Shown here: positions 5,498 to 26,658 of the stretch, piece by piece
Layout of the letters: each line of letters begins with the position of its first letter
Numbering within the stretch: the stretch's first letter is position 1
IMG/VR virus record: IMGVR_UViG_3300020125_000357
Coordinates: 1-57,778 of that record
Strand: one strand, 5' to 3'
Source: a virus
DNA length: 57,778 nucleotides
Program-made: the position numbers and the translations under genes
The notes under the pieces: generated by a model
What the model was told of the DNA's origin: nothing
Databases searched by the model: none
The model's input: the letters and a program-made list of their open reading frames with translations, nothing else

Positions 5498-5769
5498 TGG
5501 CGTATTGTGTGGGATTTTTATTGGGTCTATTATTTATTATAATTATAGGAAGGTTCGCATCATCTCATATAGAAGAACTTACTGTCGGTGATATTTGTTT
5601 TTGGAAACCAACAAATGTAAAATGTATGATATTTGACGAGTGGTGTAAGTATTTTTATATTAAAGATTTGGATGGTAACCGATTGAATGGGGGTAGGTTG
5701 GTGCATAAAAATATGTTAATAAAAGTTAAAGATGAGCCGCTTGACAAATCACCTCCAACTATGCAATAA
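5494..5769 (+). CDS. Membrane-anchored SH3-like small protein, 91 aa
   Basis: One N-terminal membrane helix (about residues 3-20) is followed by a beta-rich segment of the type V-G-D-x-x...Y-I-K-D-L-D-G...M-L-I-K-V, as in small SH3/KOW-like barrels that recur in this genome. The last codons contain the TTGACA of the following promoter. The family role is unknown. Confidence 0.5.
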   Translation: MMAYCVGFLLGLLFIIIIGRFASSHIEELTVGDICFWKPTNVKCMIFDEWCKYFYIKDLDGNRLNGGRLVHKNMLIKVKDEPLDKSPPTMQ

Positions 5770-5770
5770 T
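5741..5770 (+). promoter_or_regulatory. Candidate promoter inside the end of the preceding gene
   Basis: TTGACA (5741-5746, perfect) and AATAAT (5765-5770, one mismatch) are 18 bases apart. It would transcribe the untranslated stretch 5777-5945 containing the second two-hairpin RNA and, on read-through, the tRNA cluster. The spacing matches the promoter at 142-171. Confidence 0.55.
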
Positions 5771-5852
5771 GCTGAACTTGCAATAGAGAAATTGATTTAT
5801 TCATCTCCAAAGAACTAAATTACTTTTTATCCCTCTCTGTTGCAGGTACTAG

Positions 5853-5945
5853 AATCAACCATTAAATATGACGGTAAATTTAATGGTTGATTTAATTATC
5901 CACCATACTAGCCCCAAACACTTTACCGTCGCTGGGGCTTTTTTA
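5853..5945 (+). ncRNA. Second two-hairpin RNA with complementary loops
   Basis: Hairpin A is a perfect 15-bp stem (5853-5867 with 5878-5892) enclosing a 10-nt loop containing GACGGTAA. Hairpin B is the terminator (5910-5916 with 5933-5939), whose 16-nt loop contains TTTACCGTC (5922-5930). The two loops are perfectly complementary over 8-9 bases. The layout repeats that of the RNA at 177-277 with unrelated sequence. No protein-coding frame was seen from 5770 to 5850. Confidence 0.65.
5910..5945 (+). terminator. Rho-independent terminator of the early operon
   Basis: AGCCCCA/TGGGGCT is a GC-rich 7-bp stem followed by a run of T. It ends the rightward early operon and is hairpin B of the RNA described above. 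Confidence 0.85.
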
Positions 5946-5951
5946 TTTATG

Positions 5952-6043
5952 TACGTCTAGCTTTGATGGTTCATTCCGATATAGGTAGCGAAAGCAGTCG
6001 AATAGATATACTATATAGCTCCGTTCGATTCGGAGAGGCGTGC
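5952..6043 (+). ncRNA. tRNA-like element with enlarged D-loop
   Basis: The acceptor stem TACGTCT (5952-5958) pairs with AGGCGTG (6036-6042), two G-T pairs included. The T-arm is canonical (CTCCG, loop TTCGATT, CGGAG, 6019-6035). The D-stem GCTTT/AAAGC (5960-5964 with 5991-5995) encloses 26 nt instead of 7-11. The anticodon arm pairs only over three bases, with a loop reading AATAGAT at the expected place and no U33. It is a degenerate tRNA, a tRNA with an insertion, or a tRNA mimic. Confidence 0.5.
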
Positions 6044-6093: not shown

Positions 6094-6102
6094 TATTTAT
6101 GT

Positions 6103-6174
6103 ATTCCCGTCGTATAGTGGTGAATACATTCGGTTTTCATCCGGATAACAGCAGTTCAATTCTGCTCGGGAATA
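6103..6174 (+). tRNA. tRNA-Glu (TTC)
   Basis: The acceptor ATTCCCG/CGGGAAT, the D-stem GTAT/ATAC, the anticodon stem TTCGG/CCGGA with loop TTTTCAT, and the T-arm AGCAG-TTCAATT-CTGCT all fold. Anticodon TTC reads Glu codons, which suits an AT-rich genome. The following bases read A-CCCA, so a CCA is nearly encoded. Confidence 0.85.
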
Positions 6175-6179
6175 CCCAT

Positions 6180-6359
6180 GCAAGATGTAGCTCAGAAAAT
6201 CATCACCTGAGACGTGAAGAAGGGTCGACTTACTTACTGATAATTATGGAGCTTTATTGTATAAACAGATTATTGGTTAGTGAAGTGAGAGCAATTGGTG
6301 ATGTAGGGAGTCATGACCCGAAACTGATAGGTCGCTGGTTCGAGTCCAGCCATCTTGCA
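6180..6359 (+). ncRNA. Interrupted tRNA-like element
   Basis: The 5' part (6180-6195) is GCAAGATG plus a D-stem start (TAGCTCAG). The 3' part has a canonical T-arm GCTGG-TTCGAGT-CCAGC (6334-6350) and CATCTTGC, which pairs with the 5' end over 8 bp. Between lie about 140 nt. They include D-loop-like TTGGTTAG near 6273-6280 and AGAGC near 6288-6292. After these comes a possible anticodon stem ATTGG/CTGAT holding a 25-nt loop with its own GGG/CCC hairpin. Total length is about 100 nt more than a tRNA. Intron, pseudogene and mimic are all possible. Confidence 0.5.
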
Positions 6360-6374
6360 CTTTTTGGAAATATA

Positions 6375-10442: not shown

Positions 10443-10709
10443 TTAACTAATTCCTTGTAATTTATTAAAGGTTAGGCCATTATGTAGTTTCATATATTGT
10501 CCTGCGATATTCTTAATTATAAAGCCATTATTCACAAAATAGTTAATTAAATCAGAGGCTCTGTTGTATCCTATGCCAAACTTTACCTGTACATTAGATA
10601 CGGTAAATGGTTTAGAGGAATCGATATAGGATTTCATTTGTTCCATTAAATAGGTTTGTTGTTCTATAATCTTATTCGGGTTACATAAGTCTGCAAAAAA
10701 TTTTTCCAT
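10443..10709 (-). CDS. Winged-helix protein resembling the FtsK gamma domain, 88 aa
   Basis: The segment V-Q-V-K-F-G-I-G-Y-N-R-A-S-D-L-I-N-Y (about 43-60), followed by N-N-G-F-I-I, closely follows the FtsK gamma winged helix, which reads KOPS DNA sites and has I-G-Y-N-R-A. Here the domain stands alone after a 35-residue helix. A sequence-specific DNA-binding role is likely; the target is unknown. Confidence 0.6.
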   Translation of the reverse strand: MEKFFADLCNPNKIIEQQTYLMEQMKSYIDSSKPFTVSNVQVKFGIGYNRASDLINYFVNNGFIIKNIAGQYMKLHNGLTFNKLQGIS

Positions 10710-15450: not shown

Positions 15451-15944
15451 CAATTGAGGAAGCTTGGAATTATTATAATGGTGGTAAGATAGAGAAGATT
15501 ATAATGAATCCTAATGATTATGAGCGTTTTAAACGAATAGAGAATGAAATGTATGGTGATAATAGTAAAGGTATGAAAGATATACCAGAGATGTGTTTGG
15601 AACCCACAGAGGTAACAATTACTAAAGTTTATGCTAATGAAGAAGAAATGAAAGATATTTCAGATACTGTATGTGGATTTGGACCTTTAGAGCCTGATAA
15701 AAAAGAGGAGTATAGTAAGATTGAATTTGAAATTGACTATGAAGAAGGCGTTCGTGAAGATTATCAATATAGCTTCTTAGATGCCTTTAGATTCTTAATG
15801 AAAGGTCATACAATTAGGTTTGCTAATGGCGATAGGATGTTTAAAATAATTAATGGTAAGTTTTATGAGTTAATAGAGCACACGGCAGGTTTTAGTTCTA
15901 AATCTATGTTATATGATAAGTTTTATGTGGAGGATAAGGAATGA
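15447..15944 (+). CDS. Acidic hypothetical protein, 165 aa
   Basis: A highly acidic middle (Glu/Asp/Lys) precedes a C-terminal domain with Y-S-F-L-D-A-F-R-F-L-M-K-G-H-T-I-R, which has the layout of short phage proteins where an F-x-x-A-x-x-x-L-x-x-G helix starts a DUF2829-like fold. It overlaps both neighbours. Function unknown. Confidence 0.5.
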   Translation: MTIEEAWNYYNGGKIEKIIMNPNDYERFKRIENEMYGDNSKGMKDIPEMCLEPTEVTITKVYANEEEMKDISDTVCGFGPLEPDKKEEYSKIEFEIDYEEGVREDYQYSFLDAFRFLMKGHTIRFANGDRMFKIINGKFYELIEHTAGFSSKSMLYDKFYVEDKE

Positions 15945-23624: not shown

Positions 23625-23899
23625 TGCTACCTCCAATGTATACATTACAAGCAGCCCTTATAGGACTCTCAGATCCAACTCCTACAATAAATTTGGCAAA
23701 TGGAGTAATTGCGCAATTAACAAGATATGAATATTATCTTCCATATATTAATGATGTTAACCCCCAATTAAATGTACCAATTTTATATTTTAATATTATA
23801 ACGCAGGCTATAACAATTGGTGATACTTCAGATATTGGAATTACTAATTCTGATATATTTAGTGCTACTGATTGGATTGTTTTAAATGCAGTTTACTAA
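23624..23899 (+). CDS. Hypothetical protein upstream of the large terminase, 91 aa
   Basis: It is rich in Ile, Thr, Asn and Pro with almost no charge, the composition of virion proteins in this genome and not of the early proteins. TAATG couples it to the large terminase. It may be a minor head or fibre-associated protein. Confidence 0.5.
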   Translation: MLPPMYTLQAALIGLSDPTPTINLANGVIAQLTRYEYYLPYINDVNPQLNVPILYFNIITQAITIGDTSDIGITNSDIFSATDWIVLNAVY

Positions 23900-26658
23900 T
23901 GATTAATTATAATAGATTAGCAGAATTAATTAAAAAAAAAGATAGTGGATCTCCATTAACTCATTTTGAATTACAAGAATTTGCTGATTTAACTCGTGAA
24001 ATAAAAACAAAGGATTATTTATCTTTTTGTAAATCTATGCGGCCTACGTATAAGTGGGCATGGTTTCATGAATATATAATATCTTGTATCGATTCTGCCA
24101 TTGAAAATAAAAGAGGTAGATTCATTGGTAAAATGCCTCAACAGCATGGAAAAGCTCTAAAAAATGGTTCATTGATAAAAGTTATAAATGGCTGGAAAAA
24201 AATTGAAGAATTAGTAATTGGTGATATTGTCGATAATGCGTGCGGTGGTTATACAGAAGTTATTGGCATTTATCCTCAAGGAATTAAACAATTATATAAA
24301 ATTACATTTGAAGATAATAGATCTATTGAATGTTGTAGTGAACATTTATGGCAAATACATAGTAGTAAATGGAGGAGTGAAAAGAAACGGATATTAAATA
24401 CAGAAGAAATTATTAGATTGAGTAAATTAAATAATTATTCAAAAAATTTATATATCCCAAGATATATTCCAGTAAAAGATAAAGATATATCACTTCTCAT
24501 TGAGCCTTATTTATTCGGCGTATTATTGGGTGATGGCAGTTTTAGTAAAAGTATAAAAATAACGTCTGCTGATAAATATATTATTGATAAATGTAATCAA
24601 AGTCTATCTAGTTTAAATATGGATTTAACTCATTATGAAAAATATGATTATGGTGTTAAAAATATCAAACAAAATTTAATTGATTCAAAAGGTCGTCCAA
24701 GAACAAGAATGCATAAAAATATAATTAAAGATAACATAGTTTTAATGGGTTTATTACATAAACAATCCCATGAAAAATTTATTCCAGAAATATATTTTGA
24801 AGGTTCCTATGATCAAAGATTAAAATTAATTCAAGGATTAATGGATACAGATGGAACTATAGGTAAACAAAGTACTATTAATTTTACAACTACAAGTCCA
24901 CAGTTAGCATTAGACATGCAAAAATTAATTAGATCTATTGGGGGATTAGCCCAAATAAAAATCAAACAATCTTTTTTTAAATATAAGGGTGAAAAGAAAA
25001 AGGGAAGACTAGCATACACAGTTAATATAAGAATGGCAGATCAAACATTATTATTTAGTTTACCTAGAAAATTAGAAAGATGTAAAGCTATTCATAGAAG
25101 AAGTAAAGCAAATAAATACATACGTATTAAAAACATAGAACTTAGTGGATTTGATAATGCTACTTGTATTTCTGTAGCTGATCCTAATCATTTATTTGTT
25201 ACGGATGATTATATAGTTACCCATAATACTGAATTGTTTGGCCGTATGCCAGTACCTTATATTTTTGGTAAATACCCTGAATGGAAAATAATATATATTA
25301 CATTTAGTGATGATAGAGCCAAAGAAGTATCTGGAGATATTTTAAATATTATTGCTAGTGATGAATATAATAAATTATTTCCTCAAGTAATATTAAAAGA
25401 TAGAATTGTAGACGATGTTAGAACAGCACAAAAAAGACGTAATAAATTATCAATTAATAATTTTACTAATGTAAATAGTAAACGTGGTGAATTTAAAGCG
25501 GTAGGTATAGAAGGATCAACATCTGGCTATGATGCAAATTTGATTATATTAGATGATTTTTTTAGTGGGCCAGTAGAATATAATAGCCCAACTATTAGAG
25601 AAAAACGTTGGAAAATATTTACAGAAAATATTCTAAAACGTCAACAAAAAGATACCATAATTTTAGTAATGTCTACTCATTGGCATAAAGATGACATTAT
25701 TGGTAGACTTGAGGAATATATAAAAATAAAAGATCCTTTAGCACCAGATTGGCAAGTAATTGAATTTAATGCCCAAAAAGATGAAAGAGATTACCCATAT
25801 GATCCTAGGCAAATAGGTGAATATTTATGGCCAGAAGAAAGATTAGATGTATATCTTGAAGGTAAAATTATTGATCCCATAGGATGGCAAACTACTTATC
25901 AAAATATGCCAATGAGTTCAAGTGGAACTATTTTTGATGCAACATCATTTAGATATTATGATGAGTCTCCTAATGTTGAAAATTTACGCATAATTATTAG
26001 CGTAGATCCTAATTATAAAAAAGCAGCTAAAAAAGGTGATGATTGTGCAATTGTAGTATTAGGATTTGATTCAGATAAAGTTTATTTATTAGATTATTCA
26101 GCAATCAATAAAGTTGATATTATGGATAATATTAATAGGATTAATATTTTTAGACAAAAATATCCTAATTATTATGCCATATTAGTTGAGGATGCAGCAC
26201 AAGGTGAAGATATTGTTACCTTAATGCAATATGAGGGCGTTAGTAAGCTTAATAAGTTTATTCCCCAAGGCTTTAATAAAGGTGAAAATGGTAAATTATT
26301 TCGTGCACAAAATATGATTCCTTATTGCAGAGCAGGACAATTTCATTTACCTTCACCACGAATATATCCATCTATACAACTATATATCAATCAATTTTTG
26401 GAATTTACAGGATTTGATAATGGAAAAGACGATTGTGTGGATGCAACATCACAGGCATTTATTGAATATAAATATTTATTAGAACCTATTAAATTATCAA
26501 GAATTGATTATTCGATTAAAAATGAATTTAATTTAGGTAGAGGATTAACAAAACTTAATAATCCTTTTATAGGAAACAATTATGAGCAAAAAAACACGTT
26601 CCCAACCCAAAGTATCCGTAACACAAAAACCTTTGGTTCAATTAGGCGCATTAGATAA
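23899..26658 (+). CDS. terL: Terminase large subunit with in-frame intein, 919 aa precursor
   Basis: The ATG at 23899 overlaps the upstream TAA. Removing the 358-residue intein (residues 86-443) gives a 561-residue packaging motor. The rejoined Walker A is Q-Q-H-G-K-T, Walker B is L-I-I-L-D-D, and a coupling motif M-S-T-H-W-H-K-D-D follows. The C-terminal nuclease has S-V-D-P-N, L-V-E-D-A and D-D-C-V-D-A acidic sites. The enzyme pumps DNA into proheads and cuts concatemers. The motor is inactive until the intein splices, because K and T of Walker A are separated. Confidence 0.93.
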   Translation: MINYNRLAELIKKKDSGSPLTHFELQEFADLTREIKTKDYLSFCKSMRPTYKWAWFHEYIISCIDSAIENKRGRFIGKMPQQHGKALKNGSLIKVINGWKKIEELVIGDIVDNACGGYTEVIGIYPQGIKQLYKITFEDNRSIECCSEHLWQIHSSKWRSEKKRILNTEEIIRLSKLNNYSKNLYIPRYIPVKDKDISLLIEPYLFGVLLGDGSFSKSIKITSADKYIIDKCNQSLSSLNMDLTHYEKYDYGVKNIKQNLIDSKGRPRTRMHKNIIKDNIVLMGLLHKQSHEKFIPEIYFEGSYDQRLKLIQGLMDTDGTIGKQSTINFTTTSPQLALDMQKLIRSIGGLAQIKIKQSFFKYKGEKKKGRLAYTVNIRMADQTLLFSLPRKLERCKAIHRRSKANKYIRIKNIELSGFDNATCISVADPNHLFVTDDYIVTHNTELFGRMPVPYIFGKYPEWKIIYITFSDDRAKEVSGDILNIIASDEYNKLFPQVILKDRIVDDVRTAQKRRNKLSINNFTNVNSKRGEFKAVGIEGSTSGYDANLIILDDFFSGPVEYNSPTIREKRWKIFTENILKRQQKDTIILVMSTHWHKDDIIGRLEEYIKIKDPLAPDWQVIEFNAQKDERDYPYDPRQIGEYLWPEERLDVYLEGKIIDPIGWQTTYQNMPMSSSGTIFDATSFRYYDESPNVENLRIIISVDPNYKKAAKKGDDCAIVVLGFDSDKVYLLDYSAINKVDIMDNINRINIFRQKYPNYYAILVEDAAQGEDIVTLMQYEGVSKLNKFIPQGFNKGENGKLFRAQNMIPYCRAGQFHLPSPRIYPSIQLYINQFLEFTGFDNGKDDCVDATSQAFIEYKYLLEPIKLSRIDYSIKNEFNLGRGLTKLNNPFIGNNYEQKNTFPTQSIRNTKTFGSIRRIR
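24154..25227 (+). mobile_element. Class 3 (W-C-T) intein with LAGLIDADG endonuclease
   Basis: The 358-residue insert starts with Ala and ends V-T-H-N before Thr+1, so it has no N-terminal nucleophile. Class 3 marks are visible: block B C-S-E-H-L-W with Trp66, block F Cys338 in T-C-I-S-V in place of the usual Asp, and block G Thr356-His357-Asn358. LAGLIDADG motifs occur at about 119-128 (L-F-G-V-L-L-G-D-G) and 225-234 (L-I-Q-G-L-M-D-T-D-G), both with their Asp. Splicing and homing both look intact. Confidence 0.9.

Follow-up and report, generated by a model that had tools for sequence, protein, structure and literature searches.

The window analysed here, an IMG/VR record of 57,778 bases taken at its full length, encodes homologues of a tail sheath protein, a major head protein, a primase and Sak4, and its source looks like a contractile-tailed phage. 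It carries two predicted RNA elements, denoted RNA1 and RNA2, which share the order promoter, RNA, terminator and genes. RNA1 precedes the left operon, which begins about 50 bases or less past its terminator, while RNA2 precedes tRNA genes. The promoters, both RNAs with all their parts, and the first gene recognised after each lie on the + strand.

RNA2 is preceded by a putative promoter at 5741–5770 (TTGACA-18-AATAAT, with TG before the −10 element), which matches the consensus at 11 of 12 positions. Placed from this promoter, the transcript would start near 5772–5777 and is predicted to span about 173 nt (5772–5944), folding into three successive hairpins and including a further, long 5′ helix, P1 (5777–5846). 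The fold that shows the hairpin and terminator described next has an energy of −27.1 kcal/mol (z = −4.45), and none of 200 shuffles folded equally well. Hairpin P2 (5853–5892) has a perfect 15-bp stem (5853–5867/5878–5892; 16 bp including an outer G-U) and the loop AUGACGGUAA at 5868–5877. A linker of about 17 nt, including the conserved unpaired stretch AATTATCCAC (5894–5903), leads to the terminator (5910–5944), in which a 7-bp stem (5910–5916/5933–5939) encloses a 16-nt loop containing UUUACCGUC and a T6 tract follows. The two loops are complementary: GACGGTAAA at 5870–5878 matches TTTACCGTC at 5922–5930 over 9 nt, and eight of these positions (GACGGTAA, 5870–5877) fall within the P2 loop, with the closing A of P2 at 5878 as the ninth. 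GACGGUAAA shows 9 nt of complementarity to UUUACCGUC. The sequence and the fold thus confirm what the sequence-only reading had described, namely a 15-bp hairpin with a 10-nt loop followed by a terminator whose loop is complementary to it over 8–9 bases. The first recognised gene downstream is tRNA-Glu(ttc) at 6102–6178.

RNA1 (178–273) is built in the same way, with a promoter, a hairpin, and a terminator whose loop is complementary to the hairpin loop. Its putative promoter (142–171, CTGACA-18-TATAAT) also matches the consensus at 11 of 12 positions, and the unit from promoter to terminator is about 100 nt long. The hairpin at 178–223, identified by the descriptor scan, fold and covariation described below, has a 7-nt inner loop that is exactly GAGAGAG (197–203). 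The terminator at 228–277, identified by the same three means, carries CTCTCTC (248–254) in a 13-nt loop, and the complementarity is exactly 7 bases. The first gene after the terminator (326–631) encodes 101 aa without a Pfam match. An open frame of 49 aa crosses RNA1 (180–329), and the relative introduced below has a frame of 39 aa; the two differ by a 1-nt indel and hardly resemble each other (local score 39). The frame opens a few bases from the predicted 5′ end of the transcript, which leaves no room for a ribosome site. A coding explanation of RNA1 is not favoured by this comparison.

Both promoters are among four sites tied for the best sigma-70 match (11/12) in the first 20 kb, where promoter-like sites as a class show no excess over shuffles. 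In a simple scan, the + strand showed no promoter-like site in the gap separating each terminator from the gene that follows it. Both terminators consist of a G+C-rich stem followed by a T-tract, the criterion for intrinsic terminators; their loops of 13–16 nt are larger than the 3–8 nt that the simple terminator scan assumes.

Several other features were observed in the window. The fold of positions 5949–6043, between RNA2 and tRNA-Glu, contains a stem resembling an acceptor stem and a hairpin resembling a T-arm (CTCCG TTCGATT CGGAG); neither ARAGORN nor Rfam calls a tRNA there, and the segment is possibly a degenerate tRNA. A tRNA-like gene at 6179–6360 has ends (GCAAGATGTAGCTCAG ... GGTTCGAGTCCAGCCATCTTGC) that match an intact tRNA of the relative called Asn(att), but close to its D-arm it contains some 100 nt of structured insert; its fold closes the acceptor stem and T-arm, and its tmRNA match is only sub-threshold. 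The relative has a second interrupted tRNA-like copy, at about 15800–15890 of the retrieved piece. At 10443–10709 lies an 88-aa protein with a match to FtsK gamma (winged-helix) just under threshold. An intein-like insert, about 350 aa long and lacking in both relatives, splits a terminase-like protein (23872–26658); the matches of the relatives stop at residues about 95–102 and restart at 453.

Comparison with a related phage

IMGVR_UViG_3300048572_000044 is a largely collinear relative, with 75–77% identity in the capsid and 81% in the portal. It keeps RNA1 in the same position, before the homologue of the gene at 326–631, and carries RNA2 in two versions. Both have tRNA genes behind them, and tRNA-Glu comes after RNA2 there too. 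The RNA1 promoter of the relative retains TATAAT with a weaker −35 element; that of RNA2 retains TTGACAAAT and TGCAATAAT with a different spacer.

The RNA1 loops are GAGAGAG/CTCTCTC in the window and AAGTAAG/CTTACTT in the relative, so that three of the seven pairs have changed on both sides and all seven remain paired; this kissing-helix covariation comes from one pair of sequences in two phages. If the loops had changed independently, three random changes in each would leave a perfect match in about 1 of 1000 cases. For the complete RNA1 structure, pairing holds in 92.8% of cells, compared with 33–54% when the partners are slid by 1–3 columns. RNA2 presents the opposite pattern. GACGGTAA, TTTACCGTC and the linker AATTATCCAC are identical in all three versions (that of the window and the two of the relative), while the P2 stem shows four compensatory double changes and two positions that lost pairing. 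The terminator body varies among the three versions, and in one of them about 14–20 additional bases separate the kissing segment from the 3′ arm of the stem. P1 is poorly conserved in sequence, and the helix is predicted in the relative as well.

Since the RNA1 loops changed together and the RNA2 loop segments stayed invariant while the stem compensated, the loop–loop contact is probably under selection, and the comparison makes it very likely that a conserved contact is real. The covariation, which the sequence-only reading could not see, strengthens its confirmed observation. Its further claim that the two RNAs share one architecture, each behind a promoter with an 18-bp spacer, is likewise supported; the relative keeps the loop match, and the RNA1 loops covary.

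The two RNA2 versions of the relative share exactly 127 bases, up to the end of the contig, and this exact repeat connects a single start of RNA2 with two distinct terminators and sets of tRNAs. It lies in the region of position 228 in one retrieved piece and at the end of another. Because 127 bp is a usual assembly k-mer length, the two versions may be strain (allelic) variants rather than tandem copies.

Descriptor scans and chance expectation

The architecture was expressed as a descriptor combining a hairpin, a terminator and complementary loops, with at least 7 complementary bases in its strict form. On both strands of the window, it matched in exactly two places, 178–273 and 5852–5939. 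The strict form gave no match in 30 shuffled genomes, and a permissive form found the same two places in the window against 0.067 per shuffled genome (60 shuffles) and three in the relative against 0.13 expected; the descriptor was written after the finding had been seen, and these figures hold for a shape chosen beforehand by the sequence-only reading rather than for a blind search. That reading had also proposed comparing phage genomes with shuffled controls, and here its expectation failed: 690 kb of other viral DNA, a small and non-random sample retrieved for other reasons, contained 4 matches against about 5.3 in shuffles. Its phrase "two independent cases" was too strong, given that a single genome holds both and that they could be paralogues which have diverged.

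The matches in other viral DNA, as frequent as in shuffles, demonstrate that chance cases exist, and an ordinary hairpin beside an ordinary terminator could have loops that match by coincidence or that hold the paired half-sites of a DNA operator. Such an origin is very improbable for RNA1 and RNA2. By chance, about 0.1 cases would be expected in each genome, compared with the two of the window and the three of its relative. An operator would have needed a new repressor specificity, since the RNA1 half-sites changed together and stayed complementary; the motif of RNA2 does not form a dispersed repeat either, with two extra copies at unrelated places in the window and none in the relative. These observations bring chance and operator origins close to refutation. 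A DnaA box was also considered for TTATCCAC and discarded: the match covers 8 of 9 bases only, and the window lacks TTATCCACA.

Searches for further carriers

With patterns for the RNA1 start, for the loop pair of RNA2 and for its linker together with the terminator, 2.9 million viral contigs were scanned, and no third carrier emerged. The RNA2 same-loop pattern matched 37 stretches in IMG/VR, and inspection found the structure only in the two of the relative. The linker-plus-terminator pattern matched 27 stretches, none of which had the descriptor structure apart from the relative; one contig of this set had an unrelated weak descriptor match elsewhere. The RNA1-start pattern found the relative only. 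The sole match to the RNA2 pattern in GTDB, from Azonexus, folds differently and was taken as chance.

Protein searches with the portal, capsid, primase, Sak4 and a protein of the nuclease region placed only the relative near the source phage, with 3300029985_000054 and remoter contigs beyond. The contig of 3300029985_000054 (capsid about 70% identical), possibly incomplete, carries no such RNA. No portal relatives were found in GTDB species genomes, and capsid, sheath and portal had no match among 50,697 phage records. With Rfam 15, at gathering and permissive thresholds, only tRNAs reached gathering, and the weak matches fell far below the cut-offs. These searches document the element in a single rare lineage of phages. 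Within this lineage, the RNAs behave as the sequence-only reading proposed, as if defined by structure rather than by sequence, whereas a broad family of phage RNAs is not supported. Sequence patterns cannot find loops that drift together, and a broad family, though not shown, may therefore exist.

Comparison with known RNAs

In ColE1 RNAI/RNAII and pT181-type attenuators, short loops pair fully, and loop kissing can decide termination; the partners there are antisense transcripts of the same DNA, whereas here both loops lie on one sense transcript. The phi29 pRNA resembles the present RNAs in having two complementary loops in one phage RNA; these pair between molecules to build the packaging ring, and neither is a terminator loop. 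A partial literature search found no published RNA in which a hairpin loop kisses the loop of its own terminator, and similar arrangements may exist under other names.

Of the pseudoknotted phage sRNAs in Rfam, the closest one considered is skipping-rope RNA (RF02924), which is associated with phages and whose pseudoknot is supported by covariation (PMC7779021, PMC8501573); in these respects it resembles the RNAs described here. Its outer stem encloses three hairpins in a multiloop that bears GAGG and GAGAUG motifs, as in the member used as a positive control; RNA1 and RNA2 lack these and are successive hairpins, folded almost throughout, without a closing stem. The RF02924 model finds members in bacterial genomes; neither the window nor the relatives gave a match to it at E ≤ 10.

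Phage HK022 has two put RNAs of about 70 nt, each with two stem-loops, downstream of its early promoters (PMC9378689). RNA1 and RNA2 likewise have two stem-loops soon after phage promoters, and put acts on transcription in cis, so that an antitermination RNA of this type, modifying the polymerase early in the transcript, could be envisaged here. This is scarcely probable: put, as described, binds RNA polymerase and prevents termination, and its second stem-loop is not a terminator (PMC9378689), whereas the second stem-loop here is itself the terminator, and no Rfam family matched.

The P4 CI RNA and the c4/IsrK prophage RNAs, as described in the available text of PMC4825925, are comparable, being short phage RNAs before an operon with their own terminator, complementary segments on one transcript and a read-through isoform. 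According to that text, P4 CI RNA causes termination and pairs with stretches of the transcript from which it derives, and the target of IsrK in trans is its own read-through product. The pairing it reports involves separate leader or mRNA segments, and kissing with the RNA's own terminator loop is not among the interactions it describes (PMC4825925). The complementary segments of RNA1 and RNA2 lie on the same transcript, but with one partner in the terminator loop. P4 CI RNA and IsrK, so far as the available text goes, also provide precedents for kissing in trans, in which the upstream loop would pair with the terminator loop of another copy and form dimers or mediate dosage or superinfection control. 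We consider this improbable for RNA1 and RNA2, where partners about 60 nt or less apart on one molecule should favour pairing in cis and evidence for processing or a trans target was not found.

A kissing-loop attenuator as the favoured model

The best reading, which we advance tentatively, is a kissing-loop attenuator, that is, a leader transcript with a terminator tuned by loop kissing. Each element would be a short leader that starts at a promoter of its own and stops at an intrinsic terminator just before the genes. Sequence and covariation support pairing of the terminator loop with the loop of the hairpin immediately upstream, over 7 bp in RNA1 and 8–9 bp in RNA2. The pairing would arise within one molecule as the RNA emerges, pre-order the large terminator loop of 13–16 nt, and set how well the terminator closes. 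If the upstream loop were occupied or folded late, the polymerase would read through. The effect could run in either direction, with the contact helping closure as a clamp or holding the hairpin open as an anti-terminator. Pairing in cis appears possible for RNA2, whose stretched linker can span the stacked helices when nearly taut by a rough length estimate, and for RNA1, owing to flexible flanks in its hairpin.

The attenuator is favoured by the excess of descriptor matches in the window and the relative over expectation, by the covarying RNA1 loops, and by the constancy of the RNA2 loop segments beside a compensated stem and a varied terminator body. It is also favoured because both phages place RNA1 before the same gene and RNA2 before tRNA genes, and because the + strand has no promoter-like site between the terminators and the next genes. 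Counting against it, no alternative anti-terminator fold is visible, and the downstream genes could be served by promoters that a simple scan misses or by phage factors.

Nearly as likely, RNA1 and RNA2 are free-standing structured sRNAs, in which the terminator merely ends the RNA, kissing gives a compact, stable fold, and function is exerted in trans, either by protein binding or by base pairing of exposed stretches, for instance the AAUUAUCCAC linker in RNA2. Their lengths from promoter to terminator, the nearly complete folding of both and the invariance of the linker are consistent with such a role. On the other hand, the window does not contain the complement of TTATCCAC, so that the phage offers no perfect target, and both RNAs stand directly before genes with no other promoter-like site between. 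Generalising the attenuator model, we regard as rather unlikely a phage attenuator class in which kissing between terminator loop and upstream loop controls intrinsic termination, the loops drift while remaining complementary, and the device is used twice in a single genome for read-through into an operon and tRNA genes.

Intrinsic terminators are usually treated as a stem and a U-tract with a passive loop. Because the loops can drift without losing complementarity, RNA searches based on sequence would overlook such elements. As far as function can be read from sequence, the loop-to-loop contact may help control how far transcription runs. If the contact is conserved and covarying, the terminator loop would be a regulatory input site, suggesting a terminator whose strength would be set by a programmable loop pair.
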